Source of the DNA: Methanobacteriota archaeon | GTDB taxonomy: Archaea > Thermoplasmatota > Poseidoniia > Poseidoniales > Poseidoniaceae | Direction of reading: 5' to 3' | Assembly: GCA_002722695.1 (NCBI GenBank) | Contig: PBMS01000030.1 | Location: forward strand, 1 to 41,519 | DNA length: 41,519 nt | Shown: piece by piece, positions 6,683 to 11,450 of the stretch | How the letters are laid out: each line of letters begins with the position of its first letter | Position numbering within the stretch: position 1 is the first letter of the stretch | Position numbers and translations under genes: made by a program | The notes under the pieces: generated by a model | What the model saw: the letters and a program-made list of their open reading frames with translations, nothing else | What the model was told of the DNA's origin: nothing | The model's database searches: none

Positions 6683-7813
6683 TCACTCTTCCTCAAACAG
6701 CGTTGTCTGCCTCGATGGTGGAATCTCCAAATGACCCAATCGAAAGCCGATGAGGCGAACGGTGCTGTCCGCACGGATGTTGGTCGCAAAGAGCCAGTTC
6801 GCCAGGCGTTTGAACACGCCTTCATCGTCCATGGCCACGGTGATGCTCCTACCTGAGGTGTGGGTCTCAAACCCTGTGTACCGTATCTTCACTTCGGCCA
6901 GTCGCCCCGATACACCCAAACTTCGTGCACGCTCCATCACCAATTCAACCAGTTCCTCCAAGCGTTTCAACACCGTTTCATGGTCCGCCACATCTCGTTC
7001 AAAGGTGTGCTCCTTACCGATCGACTTCCGGCTGCGCAGCGGGCTCACCACGTTGCTGCTCTCACCCTCGATGACCGTCATGAACCAGGTTGCGAACCGC
7101 TCTCCGGTCAATCGCGACAACGACAGTGCACCCAACTCGTGGAGTTCGTCAGCGGTCGTGTAGCCCCATTCAGCGAGTTGGGTGGCGCGTTTTGGCCCAA
7201 TGCCTGGAATGTCTCGAAGGGAACGACCCTCGAAAAACGACTCCACCTCATCGGGCATTACCCTGAATATCCCGTTGGGTTTGTTGACCTCGCTGGACAT
7301 TTTGGCGACGATTCGGGTCGGTCCGATGCCAAAGGAAGCCGTGAGGTTCACCCGGTCTTTGATCTGCTGCTGCAGATGGCTCGTCAGCGCGAGCGCAGCA
7401 TCCCAATCTCCGCCAACGGTCTCCGTGATGTCGAGGTACGCTTCGTCAATGCTCGCTTTCTCAAACAAAACCGCTCGCTCTCGCAAGCATTCCATGACTT
7501 TCCGACTCGCACGACTGTAGAGGCCACGCGTGCCCCGAATGTACATCGCTGGACCAAACGGTGCGGCAGGGCAACGGCGCCAGGCTTCGGAAACCGGCAT
7601 CGCCGAACGAATGCCAAAGACGCGCGCCGCGTAATTGCAGGTGGAGACAATGCCACGGCCGCGGCCCTGTTTTGGGTCCGACCCAATGATCAGTGGAACG
7701 GAAGGATCAAACCCGTGGTGGATGGTCTCCACCGCAGCAAAAAAAGCATCCAAATCACAGTGCACGAGGATGCGTGGGCCCTCGTTCGCAGCGTTGTGCT
7801 CCGCCTCAACCAC
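6683..7813 (-). CDS. dinB: Y-family DNA polymerase IV (Dpo4/DinB), translesion synthesis
   Basis: 376 residues with all Y-family catalytic motifs: HCDLDAFFAAVE near the N-terminus (D20, D22) and SIDEAYLD (D123, E124) carry the metal-binding acidic residues. The palm and fingers are followed by the helix-hairpin-helix thumb (RDIPGIGPKRATQLAEWG) and the little-finger domain. The C-terminus ends in RQTTLFEEE, a short PCNA-interacting (PIP) motif candidate. The enzyme copies across damaged bases and should be active. Translation starts at GTG 7813 (MVEAEHNA); no better start precedes the conserved core. It is divergent from the RecA-like gene over about 100 bp and convergent with valS. Its neighbourhood suggests a damage-tolerance cluster. 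Confidence 0.95.
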   Translation of the reverse strand: MVEAEHNAANEGPRILVHCDLDAFFAAVETIHHGFDPSVPLIIGSDPKQGRGRGIVSTCNYAARVFGIRSAMPVSEAWRRCPAAPFGPAMYIRGTRGLYSRASRKVMECLRERAVLFEKASIDEAYLDITETVGGDWDAALALTSHLQQQIKDRVNLTASFGIGPTRIVAKMSSEVNKPNGIFRVMPDEVESFFEGRSLRDIPGIGPKRATQLAEWGYTTADELHELGALSLSRLTGERFATWFMTVIEGESSNVVSPLRSRKSIGKEHTFERDVADHETVLKRLEELVELVMERARSLGVSGRLAEVKIRYTGFETHTSGRSITVAMDDEGVFKRLANWLFATNIRADSTVRLIGFRLGHLEIPPSRQTTLFEEE

Positions 7814-7913
7814 GCCCCCTCATCAAAGCCAGCGGTGTTTGAACTTGATGCGTGCATTCAGTTCAAGTTGAGGGGTGTTCGTAAGGATTGATGACCCCCG
7901 AAAGCGACCTTCG

Positions 7914-8699
7914 ATGATTCACATGGAACCCTCGCCAACCCCACTGAAACGAAACGCTTCGCTGACACGACGCTTGCAGGGCATTGACCCCATGCACGTC
8001 CAGCCTCAGCCTGGACAACTCTACCACCTCAGTGGACCGGGGCGAGCGGGAAAGACCATGCGAAGCGTCGCCGAGCACTGGGTCTGCCACGCGCTGGCCG
8101 GGGGGGAACTGGTGCATTGGGTGGACGGTGCATGCCGAATCGATCCTGCCCGCTTCATTCCTGTGCTTGAGGCCCTTGGAACCGACGTCGAATCTGGCCT
8201 TGCTCGATTGTACCTGAGCAGAGGCTTCACGCTTCACCAACTCGATCGGCAGCTTGAGCGGTTGACCGATGAAATCGCCATCACGCGTTCGTCCATGGTC
8301 GTGGTGGACGGTGTGTTGGCCATGCACGGTGACGATGCAATTTCACCTTTGGAGTCCCGCCTTCTCTTGCGAAGGCACATCGGCTTCCTGCGCCAACTTG
8401 CCCACCGGTGGAACGTCGCCGTCGTGGTCATCACCGGAACCGCTCGATCTCCTCACACCGACTCCCGATGTTTTGCATACATCCAACGCCATGCACAAAA
8501 CCACCTTGAAGGGGCATGGCGCGGGCAACGACGGAACAAGCGACTCCACCTCCACCACCAACGAAGCGGCCTGCACGGCCAGTGGCTGCCGTTTTTCAGC
8601 GACCCACAGATGCGCTTCCTGTTGCCGACCCAACGGCTCAGCCCTCAGGAACACGGGTCGACGGTGGGTGTTTTGGCCCTGCATCATCCGGAACGATGA
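7914..8699 (+). CDS. RecA/RadA-like ATPase, probable recombination or damage-tolerance accessory factor
   Basis: About 261 residues with a P-loop core of the RecA superfamily: Walker A GPGRAGKT near residue 41-48, a hydrophobic Walker B strand MVVVDG near 128-133, and later VAVVVITGTA matching the sensor strand of RecA-fold ATPases. The N-terminal helix-hairpin-helix domain of RadA is absent, so this is a stripped-down paralog rather than the main recombinase. The last 90 residues are rich in Arg and His and unassigned. The start is uncertain: ATG at 7914 or 7923, or GTG at 7875; none has a clear Shine-Dalgarno. It is divergent from dinB, and its 3' end overlaps the convergent PolB2 gene by 62 bp. 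A RecA-like partner beside two specialised polymerases recalls bacterial ImuA, which is inference only. Confidence 0.75.
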   Translation: MIHMEPSPTPLKRNASLTRRLQGIDPMHVQPQPGQLYHLSGPGRAGKTMRSVAEHWVCHALAGGELVHWVDGACRIDPARFIPVLEALGTDVESGLARLYLSRGFTLHQLDRQLERLTDEIAITRSSMVVVDGVLAMHGDDAISPLESRLLLRRHIGFLRQLAHRWNVAVVVITGTARSPHTDSRCFAYIQRHAQNHLEGAWRGQRRNKRLHLHHQRSGLHGQWLPFFSDPQMRFLLPTQRLSPQEHGSTVGVLALHHPER

Positions 8700-11130
8700 A
8701 ATCCAGAAGGCTTGGTTGAAGTCCATCGCTTTGCAACCGTTCGGACGTCCATCCGAACGGAGCCAGAAGCGCCCATATTGCACGCTCTGCTAGTTCCGAG
8801 TAGTGTTCCAAGCAACCAAACCCTGAGGAAAAAGCACCACTGAGTTCCTCTGCGAGACGAACACGCTCCAATGGGTCGTCGGCTGAGCGATTCAACACCG
8901 TGTAGCGGACCTTTCCGCCGGGAGGAACCTCATGACCCTGCGCATGCGCACGCAAGAGTGCAGCGTAGGTCAGATTCTTCACGCGATGGTCCGCTAAACT
9001 GCGAGTTGTTCGTCGCGAGACCACCAACTCTCTCAGAGGAATTTCACCACGCTGCAAGCGTTGGAGTTCACGTCGGTAATGCGCAAGAACCGAGCGCTGC
9101 GTTGCAAGGGAAGGAATTCCAGCCTCTCGCTCACCTTCAGCAAGCAATTGCAGACCTCGCTGTTGCAAGCGCTGAATCCACTGCGGGGTTGAATGTTGTC
9201 GCAGTTCGATGCCTCGAACTTTGTAGGTCGTACCGTCGTACGCCCAGTACTTTGTGAGCGAGCCCGAACCGTGCATCCGACTTGGGAGAAATGCGATGAA
9301 TTCGTAGTGCGCCTCGTACTCGAGTGGAATGCCAACCTCTTCGGAAATACGACGGGCAAACGCCTCTGCGTCTGCACGCTGTTGCTCAACATTCCGCCCC
9401 CGAAGGTCGGAAAGCCACACGCAATCAACGATCGCATGCAGCACGTCCCATCCATCGTCCTGAGCGGCCTCAATCGTTTGCAGAAGTAGATCTCGGGACC
9501 AAGCACAAATGGCCTCATGAGCTTCGATTCGTCCAAACCGAGCGTTTCGATAACCCGTGTAGCCAAAGCAGGTCACCAGCAACCATTTCAGAGCGTTTTG
9601 CCGTAAATCGTAAGCGTCACCTTTGCGTTGACGGCGGCGTTTGAGTTCGCGACGACGTTCGATGATGGGTGCAACGACTCGTCCAAGAAACCCATGGGTT
9701 CGTCCGCAGGTGTGCATGTTGAGTCCGGGGACCGCCAAGGCTTTTTCATTGGAAAGAGGAAACAGTCCGTGGCCAAAGCGCGACCGCACGGCCCGGTTTC
9801 GAAATTCCTGAGAAGCCGCATCCGGATGCAGGGGGACGACCCCCGCCGATGCCTTGGAAGCAGGTGGTTGACAGCATGAACAATTCAAGGTCTCTGGGGA
9901 GATGTTTCGAGTGGCGATGATGCTTGGGAACAGGCTTGCAAAGTCAAGTTCAATCACCGAGGCATGAACGCCCGGACGGCTGTCAAGGTACAGCCCCCCG
10001 CGGTCCGCTTGGAGCAGGTCAAGGGCTGATTTCGTGTCCTCTGGACGATTTTTCTTCCACGGCACCAAGACCCCATCGTCCATGGCCACGCGCATCTGGA
10101 TGGCGCTGATGACCGAACCGGGCGAAAGGCGAGAGATGACTTGGGCGGATTGACGAGAGTGCTGAGCCAGTTCAAACAACCCAGCGAGACCACCCTCGTT
10201 CACGATGAAGCTGTTCTTGGTGTCCAGGTGCAAACGACCGTTGAGGAAGAACGAGCCGTGTCGATGACGCGTCTGTCCGTACGAGTGAATCGTGCGCTGG
10301 TGCGTGGATTGCTCAAGGGGTTCGGTGGTCCGTCCCAACGCAAGGTCAAGACCGTGCACCTCACGTTGTTGAACCAGCCATGGAAACCAGCGTTGGTCAC
10401 CACCCGCAGAAAGAAGAACGTCGGGGTCCATGCGCTGAAGAGCGGATTGAAAGGCAGAAAGCATGGCTGGGACCGATGCGTAGGCGGTTCGCTCGAGCAC
10501 GATCGAGTGCGTTGATGACGGAGGCGAAAAACCCGGCTCCTGAACCGTTTCAAGCCGAATGGTTTCCACGACATCACCCAACGATGGTAGGCCTTGCGTT
10601 CTCGAAAATTCAATCTCCAACCTCGCAACATGGAACGGCGGGAACATGTCCGACGCGGAAGGAGCGGTCAAAGGCTCAAGACGACCGGGATCGTCGCTCG
10701 ACCAGCGAACGCGCTGGAACGGAACGCACGCCTGTTCGTTCAGGAAGCGCTGCGCAAGATGGGCGTCCACCGAATAGAGTTTGTATCGGTGGAAATCACC
10801 TCGAGCCTCGATGTGCTCTGCCAGTGCCCGGACGTGTGGATGTCGTCCAACTTCAATTTCCAGAACGTTGACCGGGTGGTCCGCCTCAAGGTCAAGTCGA
10901 GCACGCCGAGAACCAACGACCTTGATTCCAAATCGTTGACGCAGTTCCGGTTGCATCAACCAGTGTTCCAAGCGGTCCAATTCACGAAGCGTTGCGTGAA
11001 CGTGAATCACGGGGTTCCATGGAACCGAACAGGCATGAGGCGTTCCCTGTACGTCAATAATCCATGCAATCATGCCCGTTCTGGACGTGTTCCCGTGAAC
11101 ATCGAGAAGCCACCCCTCAATCATGACCAT
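8638..11130 (-). CDS. PolB2/Dpo2-type B-family DNA polymerase with altered motif C
   Basis: An 830-residue B-family polymerase. Motif A is intact (ELDFASLFPS, about residues 394-403) and motif B is recognisable (RQNALKWLLVTCFGYTGY, about 510-527), but motif C reads HAIVDCVWLS (about 565-574) instead of YGDTD, keeping one Asp and losing the second. The exonuclease region is also worn: Exo I reads LEIEF and Exo II SAGGDQRWF. This is the pattern of the archaeal PolB2 (Dpo2) family, described as inactivated or highly specialised and linked to damage tolerance in Sulfolobus. The segment after motif A carries a cysteine cluster (NCSCCQ, then MHTC). The C-terminus has QPSLLDFIV, a plausible PIP motif. 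ATG 11130 has GAGG six bases upstream and overlaps the preceding gene by 14 bp, so the two are coupled. An upstream start at 11187 is less likely. Confidence 0.9.
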   Translation of the reverse strand: MVMIEGWLLDVHGNTSRTGMIAWIIDVQGTPHACSVPWNPVIHVHATLRELDRLEHWLMQPELRQRFGIKVVGSRRARLDLEADHPVNVLEIEVGRHPHVRALAEHIEARGDFHRYKLYSVDAHLAQRFLNEQACVPFQRVRWSSDDPGRLEPLTAPSASDMFPPFHVARLEIEFSRTQGLPSLGDVVETIRLETVQEPGFSPPSSTHSIVLERTAYASVPAMLSAFQSALQRMDPDVLLSAGGDQRWFPWLVQQREVHGLDLALGRTTEPLEQSTHQRTIHSYGQTRHRHGSFFLNGRLHLDTKNSFIVNEGGLAGLFELAQHSRQSAQVISRLSPGSVISAIQMRVAMDDGVLVPWKKNRPEDTKSALDLLQADRGGLYLDSRPGVHASVIELDFASLFPSIIATRNISPETLNCSCCQPPASKASAGVVPLHPDAASQEFRNRAVRSRFGHGLFPLSNEKALAVPGLNMHTCGRTHGFLGRVVAPIIERRRELKRRRQRKGDAYDLRQNALKWLLVTCFGYTGYRNARFGRIEAHEAICAWSRDLLLQTIEAAQDDGWDVLHAIVDCVWLSDLRGRNVEQQRADAEAFARRISEEVGIPLEYEAHYEFIAFLPSRMHGSGSLTKYWAYDGTTYKVRGIELRQHSTPQWIQRLQQRGLQLLAEGEREAGIPSLATQRSVLAHYRRELQRLQRGEIPLRELVVSRRTTRSLADHRVKNLTYAALLRAHAQGHEVPPGGKVRYTVLNRSADDPLERVRLAEELSGAFSSGFGCLEHYSELAERAIWALLAPFGWTSERLQSDGLQPSLLDFIVPDDAGPKHPPSTRVPEG

Positions 11131-11386
11131 GCCGTTCCTCGAGAGTTTTGATTCGCTCGGACAGCGCGGCAAGTTCCGCCATGACACCGACCAGCATGCT
11201 CAGGACGGCGGGTTGCCACGTGTTCATCGTCGGCAGCATTCCTCCGGCCGTTCGCCGCTGACGAACCTCGTCCAGAAGCGCGTCAAAGGCAGCCCGATCG
11301 TCCGGTGCGAGGGCGCGTCTGTACGGCACCAAGTTCTGCAACTCTGCTTCAACACGCATTCGCCACGACGGTACACTTCGACCCAT
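11117..11386 (-). CDS. Small helical protein coupled to PolB2, family unknown
   Basis: 89 residues, predicted almost wholly helical, starting MGRSVPSWRMRVEAELQN and ending in a charged helix (MAELAALSERIKTLEERHG) with heptad-like spacing. I do not recognise the family. Its stop lies inside the PolB2 reading frame: the PolB2 ATG at 11130 precedes this gene's TGA at 11117, giving a 14-bp overlap that implies translational coupling and probably equal dosage. An upstream start at 11437 would add 17 residues but runs almost up to the serA stop. A role as a PolB2 accessory subunit is inference from position. The gene is 64 bp downstream of serA on the same strand, so read-through from serA is possible. 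Confidence 0.7.
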   Translation of the reverse strand: MGRSVPSWRMRVEAELQNLVPYRRALAPDDRAAFDALLDEVRQRRTAGGMLPTMNTWQPAVLSMLVGVMAELAALSERIKTLEERHGHD

Positions 11387-11450
11387 GGCACTGTGGGGCT
11401 CCAGAAGGAAGGCATGGTTTGGCAAGACCCGACACAAAAAAGTGAAAGTG

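Follow-up and report, generated by a model that had tools for sequence, protein, structure and literature searches.

A PolB2 mutasome of Poseidoniales probably made from two convergent transcripts, with a putative tandem ACTTTC element and dinB as a separate neighbor

The window analyzed here, a stretch of 41,519 nt (contig G000:C30) from a Poseidoniales genome of 1.63 Mb that is 70.7% complete, carries adjacent genes for a RecA-like protein (iRadA), a B-family DNA polymerase (PolB2) and a small helical protein (PPB2). Judged from protein families, motifs and predicted folds, this trio is the Poseidoniales version of the published PolB2 mutasome; the system is known and the window holds a new member of it. 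For the results as a whole, we consider it very probable that a PolB2 mutasome is encoded here by two convergent transcripts, that a tandem ACTTTC element belongs to it and that the Y-family polymerase gene dinB is a separate neighbor. An earlier note, made from the letters of the window, had proposed an archaeal mutasome of four adjacent genes including dinB. All four genes were found at 6683-11386, correctly placed, and the mutasome idea stands for iRadA, polB2 and the small protein, for which it was already in print, but not for dinB. The cassette comprises the following features:

7914..8699, plus strand: iRadA, a RadA/Rad51-like subunit with a probably inactive ATPase and no N-terminal domain; the in-frame ATG is a predicted start, as the open reading frame (ORF) opens with GTG at 7875
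8638..11130, minus strand: PolB2, a B-family translesion polymerase with Ile for the first Asp of DxD and a C-terminal QPSLLDFI that resembles a PCNA-interacting peptide (PIP)
11117..11386, minus strand: PPB2 (arCOG07300 family), an 89-aa helical protein starting with MGRS, whose stop overlaps the polB2 start
8638..8699, no strand: tail-to-tail overlap of iRadA and polB2, 62 bp

Identity of the cassette and its convergent layout

For comparison we used 193 Poseidoniales genomes, which are part of the order and mostly incomplete and fragmented, so that absences are soft; start codons are predicted throughout. The relatives of the window by sequence are named Poseidonia, Candidatus Poseidoniaceae and Candidatus Thalassarchaeaceae, and because of these names the placement in Poseidoniales given in the earlier note is right. 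Two families of the order were sampled, of which f1 presumably corresponds to Poseidoniaceae and f2 to Thalassarchaeaceae. A PolB2 match at E 0.001 was obtained in 135 genomes, of which we kept the 81 with E 1.6e-35 or better; the matches left out begin at 4.7e-8 and, judged as a group and not singly, resemble another B-family polymerase. Related genomes are not independent, and the ppb2 counts represent 16 genera in two families, not 72 separate trials. One record titled uncultured Rhodobiaceae bacterium (L197) contains a Poseidoniales polB2 contig and is probably a mis-binned or mislabelled metagenome assembly.

Membership in the PolB2 mutasome follows from the motif C change of PolB2, the MGR[ST] arm of PPB2 and the profile matches and fold of iRadA. 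The polB2 gene starts with an ATG at 11130 or 11124 and ends at 8638 on the minus strand. It matches Pfam DNA_pol_B (1.4e-18), with no exonuclease-domain match in the same Pfam scan, and its best NCBIfam match, PRK05761.1-4 for a type B polymerase (1.4e-118), lies under the cut-off of that model, the assignment to the PolB2 clade being made without a tree against PolB1 and PolB3. Motif C reads HAIVDC, in which Ile586 replaces the first Asp of DxD, in agreement with the broken motif C of the earlier note, and the same replacement is present in 16 of 16 diverse aligned rows; the same kind of change is described for PolB2 of Sulfolobus islandicus (PMC11791011). As side observations, PADLOC matched PolB2 as ‘homing endonuclease’, and a search of viral contigs gave 26 pattern hits for PolB2, one weak 30% match among them.

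The ppb2 gene extends from an ATG at 11386 to a stop at 11117-11119 (minus strand) and its 89-aa product is predicted to be all-helical, with a mean predicted local distance difference test score (pLDDT) of 90. The polB2 start overlaps its end, which makes the earlier description of the small helical protein as coupled to polB2 a fair one. The N-terminus in the window is MGRSVPSWR; all 74 PPB2 rows have the MGR[ST] arm, and M1, G2, R3 and R9 are invariant in 52 aligned rows. An MGR[T/S] arm has been described for PPB2 (PMC11791011).

In iRadA, Pfam detects the Rad51 core alone (3.8e-7, over the curated cut-off), and the predicted structure (mean pLDDT 84) has the fold of the RAD51/RadA core (Foldseek E 1.3e-12). 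The iRadA family profile matches an iRadA from outside Poseidoniales with E 6e-15 and true RadA with E 1.2e-10. The gene had been described as a RecA-fold ATPase lacking the RadA DNA-binding domain: the Rad51/RadA core and the missing N-terminal domain agree with this, but the word ATPase is doubtful. When aligned with RadA, the RadA segment YIDTEDTFRPER stands opposite WVDGACRIDPAR, with Ala at the position of the RadA Glu, and the Walker A motif (P-loop), GPGRAGKT in the window, has degenerated in relatives and is missing from f2. Because of this lack of conservation, the iRadA ATPase of the window is probably inactive although its own motif looks regular. ATP switching by iRadA, considered from the GPGRAGKT of the window, was rejected, as the P-loop varies even within the genus.

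The linkage of the three genes is general: iRadA is present in 78 of the 81 polB2 loci and the 3 misses are contig edges, and the earlier caution that the adjacency might exist only in this genome does not apply. A single operon, and perhaps a complex, was predicted for the trio in 2014 (PMC4104785, Makarova 2014), and in 2025 structural models were presented under the name ‘PolB2 mutasome’ for a heteropentamer of PolB2, iRadA and three PPB2 (PMC11791011, Timinskas 2025). The cassette described here shares with it the three protein families, the motif C change, the MGR[T/S] arm and PIP-like C-termini in PolB2 or iRadA. It differs in orientation, since in Poseidoniales the 3' ends of iRadA and polB2 face each other and in most loci overlap, while the published genes are mostly co-directional (PMC11791011). 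By a loose pattern, with no control for chance, both PolB2 and iRadA have PIP-like motifs in 14 of 28 loci from f2 and in 1 of 50 from f1; such a pair is called infrequent in PMC11791011.

In the window the gene order is MMPL transporter (minus), class I tRNA synthetase (plus), dinB (minus), the RecA-like gene iRadA (plus), polB2 (minus), ppb2 (minus) and a serA-like gene for a 2-hydroxyacid dehydrogenase (minus). The convergence of PolB2 on the RecA-like gene, from which, together with the divergence of dinB, the earlier note had concluded that the genes are not in one operon, was found here and in all 78 Poseidoniales loci that have both genes, with ppb2 and polB2 remaining co-directional; the ORF ends of iRadA and polB2 overlap in 72 of the 78. 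Elsewhere in the phylum we analyzed 40 polB2 loci, drawn from 98 matching non-Poseidoniales genomes, and found iRadA in 33 of them, co-directional with polB2 in 33 of 33. As all loci with both genes are convergent within the order and all are co-directional outside it, and as the published text describes mostly one orientation, the tail-to-tail arrangement is a lineage-wide variant and looks new. The main text of PMC11791011 mentions neither Poseidoniales nor Thermoplasmata nor an opposite orientation, and dinB in the introduction only; its supplements may list these loci.

We also considered that the antisense overlap itself might be selected and rejected this: when the polB2 tail was rewritten with synonymous codons in 51 loci (overlap of at least 40 bp, without N), the iRadA frame remained open in a fraction of 0.106 to 1.0 of recodings, so that selection on the overlap need not be assumed. 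The phase of the overlap differs between lineages. At one locus (L050, genome G012) iRadA and polB2 lie 2.25 kb apart, so something stands between them.

A tandem ACTTTC element and its candidate regulon

Two sites related to the element lie in the window:

11439..11450, minus strand: tandem element CACTTTCACTTT in front of ppb2, 64 bp from the ATG; the single exact copy in the 1.63 Mb genome
7857..7867, plus strand: degenerate element TTCAGTTCAAG in front of iRadA, 57 bp from the ATG; weak and, taken alone, inseparable from chance

Upstream of ppb2 we observed a repeated CACTTTCACTTTC at a median distance of 66 bp to the ATG, which was found with at most two mismatches in 56 of 74 regions. 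As a control, 200 strings with a shuffled consensus matched a mean of 0.3 ppb2 regions, with a maximum of 8. In a scan of the 220 bp upstream of each gene, which omits genes with a missing 5' end or less than 180 bp of upstream DNA (for ppb2 this leaves 72 of 74), the element occurred with at most two mismatches before 55 of 72 ppb2, 22 of 78 iRadA and 0 of 75 dinB genes; allowing three mismatches gave 35 of 78 for iRadA and still 0 of 75 for dinB. Among the other neighbors there was one match in 324 regions (serA 0/67, tRNA synthetase 1/64, MMPL 0/61 and three more with 0/66, 0/47 and 0/19). The looser CANTTTCANTTT is found four times in the host genome, and only the copies at ppb2 and at a gene for a 58-aa protein have a comparable spacing to a gene start. 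Outside Poseidoniales the tandem element was found upstream of iRadA in 0 of 32 regions; single ANTTTC hexamers occur there, three of them in locus L300. The tandem ACTTTC element upstream of ppb2 looks new, and a search of the open-access literature found no description of it or of a Poseidoniales damage response.

The nearest likeness is to the hexamer ANTTTC, the damage response element (DDRE), which is bound by Orc1-2 in Saccharolobus islandicus (PMC9738581). ACTTTC satisfies this hexamer, which is a loose one, and likewise lies upstream of damage-tolerance genes; the difference is that here it forms a tandem direct repeat, with a period of 6 bp and at a distance that hardly varies. The ACTTTC repeats fit the hexamer, but no more than 23 of 74 ppb2 regions contain at least two copies of ANTTTC.

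Exact ACTTTCACTTTC sites were found in at least 151 of the 193 genomes, and those upstream of genes recur 62-65 bp from the ATG before the 58-aa protein and before a beta-propeller-like protein of 165-197 aa. By homology search, the 58-aa protein is encoded in 85 of 193 genomes, and the element is present in 29 of 29 examined loci including the host genome; this re-test covers 30 loci less L396, and some of its genomes had first been found via the element. In the host genome the protein is encoded at L402 (G000:C8:21327-21497) and has the signature LCWT..AP..R. In f2, 13 of 26 examined loci from 18 chosen genomes (L407, L412, L421 and ten more) encode a conserved protein of roughly 91 aa with the motif YRKR, whose gene has the element 57-69 bp away, or 87 bp in one case; the 26 loci are what is left of 30 after removal of four repeats of the same site. 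Neither protein matched a Pfam family (for the 91-aa protein one member, L407, was scanned). The beta-propeller-like loci (L305, L307, L310, L317, L328, L336, L340, L420) come from several genera and were grouped by eye; two of their proteins matched propeller models below the threshold (E about 5e-6), as did a 126-aa protein of G067 an OB-fold model (E 0.007). As the 91-aa and beta-propeller-like genes were found through the element, their element counts are not independent evidence. In a genome of genus g7 (G045) a full tandem element lies 74 bp upstream of the start of true radA (L314:2110-3126), and locus L335 (G027:C66:26000-30500) contains several consecutive CACTTTCACTT copies separated by cgg, whereas the promoter elements stand singly.

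The recurrence of the element before conserved small genes suggests a small damage regulon. In its widest form, which we put forward tentatively and hold to be a little short of probable, the tandem ACTTTC would be the ‘SOS box’ of Marine Group II, with the PolB2 mutasome as the core of the regulon, twin copies that synchronize the opposed transcripts, and as further members the 58-aa protein in Poseidoniaceae, the 91-aa protein in the sister family, the beta-propeller-like protein and, in single genomes, RadA or the OB-fold-like protein.

Several results speak against such a regulon or against parts of the overall picture. A reversed-pattern control, the same repeat out of phase, gave counts similar to ACTTTCACTTTC. 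Of 42 non-cassette sites in 40 stretches, 18 were free of long ORFs by a mechanical test, and the exact 12-mer is also found inside genes; because of this low share, many non-cassette sites presumably arose by chance. At the cassette, with at most two mismatches, the element is lacking in 17 of 72 ppb2 and 56 of 78 iRadA upstream regions, and the iRadA promoter of the window has the degenerate copy only. True radA, which one would expect to belong to a damage regulon, carries the full element at 1 of 30 loci and a half site in three f1g4 genomes, and none of 28 regions upstream of orc1 contains the full element within two mismatches (first Orc1/Cdc6 paralog, two short loci omitted); these counts do not support RadA and Orc1 as regular members. 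Two Orc1/Cdc6 proteins above the cut-off are encoded in 39 of 40 genomes and one in G030. As to the mutasome itself, a Foldseek search of PPB2 against the PDB gave no significant match, so the published likeness to sigma factors was not reproduced, and the usual, though not universal, single co-directional operon of three genes was not found in Poseidoniales.

In another reading, ACTTTC would be the site of an alternative general transcription factor or of an unrelated regulator and not a damage operator. The nearly fixed 57-73 bp to the ATG of several unrelated genes would also suit a core-promoter factor, and radA is mostly without the element. However, a single exact 12-mer in 1.63 Mb is rare for such a site, the element sits on a damage-tolerance cassette, and ACTTTC agrees with the DDRE hexamer ANTTTC (PMC9738581); we regard this alternative as possible but doubtful.

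The neighboring dinB gene

At one side of the cassette the window contains:

6683..7813, minus strand: dinB (Pol IV, Y-family), with Pfam matches IMS (1.6e-34) and IMS_C (2.8e-20); a neighbor, not a cassette member

The IMS and IMS_C matches bear out the earlier description of dinB as an intact translesion polymerase, and its translation contains HCDLDAFFAAVE and SIDEAYLD, which we take to be the DinB catalytic motifs. The divergent adjacency of dinB and iRadA, also pointed out earlier, is real in the window but is not a property of the cassette. Following the proposal of the earlier note to see whether the adjacency is kept across genomes, we found dinB beside iRadA only in f1 (36 of 81 polB2 loci) and in none of 40 polB2 stretches outside Poseidoniales; in two further genomes, G192 and G029, dinB lies beside the cassette across split contigs. 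PolB2 of clear grade is present in 81 of the 193 genomes and dinB in 94; both occur in 50, polB2 alone in 31 and dinB alone in 44. The 31 polB2 genomes without a dinB match comprise 28 from f2 and 3 from f1, and in f2 the 28 polB2 genomes and 7 dinB genomes have no overlap. In the sampled f2 genomes the two are mutually exclusive by genus, with dinB only in g14 and polB2 only in other genera.

We then compared ten gene families around dinB at 40 loci, most of them in genomes that lack the cassette there. In 36 of the 40, in f1 and f2 alike, serA is the next gene of the ten families on the same strand and no cassette gene is present in the stretch, with up to about 0.6-0.8 kb between dinB and serA in genera g4, g7 and g10. 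Of the other four, two are G192 and G029, one is at a contig edge, and G059 has a different context. Because of these 36 loci, the common order is synthetase-dinB-serA, with the cassette lying between dinB and serA where it is present at this site. In a PolB2 tree made with a quick method from 72 Poseidoniales rows and 6 others, with several long branches and pieces below 700 aa omitted, cassettes at the dinB site occur in four f1 genera, and 12 of 13 f1 cassettes located elsewhere form a clade nested among these, with G066 apart. The simplest account would be one insertion beside dinB early in f1, followed by many losses and at least one relocation.

A four-component mutasome, in which DinB would be a working part, co-regulated through the shared intergenic region of about 100 bp and handing lesions to PolB2 on the clamp, is therefore unlikely. 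It could draw on the divergent position of dinB beside iRadA in the 36 of 81 loci and the two split genomes, across four f1 genera, and on the PIP-like C-terminus QTTLF of DinB. Against it stand the 36 of 40 dinB loci that lack the cassette and have serA next among the families scanned, the 31 of 81 polB2 genomes without a dinB match, the 40 outside stretches without dinB, and the lack of the element upstream of dinB in 75 of 75 regions. DinB was thus rejected as a cassette member, as it keeps its neighbors without the cassette and excludes it in f2; it would be a separate Y-family polymerase beside which the cassette came to lie in f1. In Sulfolobus, Dpo2 is damage-inducible and the Y-family Dpo4 is housekeeping (PMC7390963), and an inducible PolB2 set next to a constitutive dinB would parallel this.

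Proposed mechanism and meaning for Poseidoniales

In the preferred reading, the complex would come from two transcripts that converge, one of ppb2-polB2 and one of iRadA. A damage-responsive candidate regulator probably acts through the ACTTTC element, which matches closely at ppb2 and often more weakly at iRadA and most likely keeps both transcripts in step, and damage would raise them together. Carrying over the published models, PolB2 would extend past lesions in error-prone translesion synthesis, iRadA would dock onto it through a Rad51-type oligomerization contact, one MGRS/MGRT arm of a PPB2 trimer would reach the active site, and the clamp would be held by a PIP motif of either PolB2 or iRadA. 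The 2014 view that PolB2 is catalytically inactive and that the trio serves repair or replication control without DNA synthesis, which would suit the replaced first Asp of motif C, the lack of a recognizable exonuclease domain and the decayed Walker A of iRadA relatives, is very improbable, given that 16 diverse PolB2 rows all retain Asp415 of motif A, Lys534 and Asp588 of motif C and that Sulfolobus Dpo2 with a comparable change is reported to be active and mutagenic in vivo (PMC7390963, PMC11791011).

The earlier note had compared the genes with the bacterial ImuA-ImuB-DnaE2 cassette, in which a C-family DnaE2 is combined with an inactive Y-family ImuB. Both are damage-tolerance cassettes with a RecA-like protein, but the polymerase families differ, with a B-family PolB2 here and an intact DinB (Pol IV models) beside it. 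The parallel drawn in the publication is instead Escherichia coli Pol V (UmuC, UmuD', RecA; PMC11791011). Like the UmuD'2-UmuC-RecA mutasome, the complex would join a polymerase, a RecA/Rad51 relative and a small subunit whose arm lies close to the active site; it differs in that Pol V has a Y-family polymerase, an active RecA, and UmuD' instead of PPB2.

The lineage-wide flip of iRadA is a natural experiment, in which a complex that usually comes from one operon would be built from two transcripts that face each other. Archaea of the order Poseidoniales (Marine Group II) abound in the surface ocean and are exposed to sunlight. If the ‘SOS box’ reading is true, the two small proteins would be response effectors, for example a division inhibitor or a fork protein. 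A rare promoter element that distinguishes the mutasome and a few other genes makes the question of an inducible mutagenic response in these archaea testable on existing metatranscriptomes.

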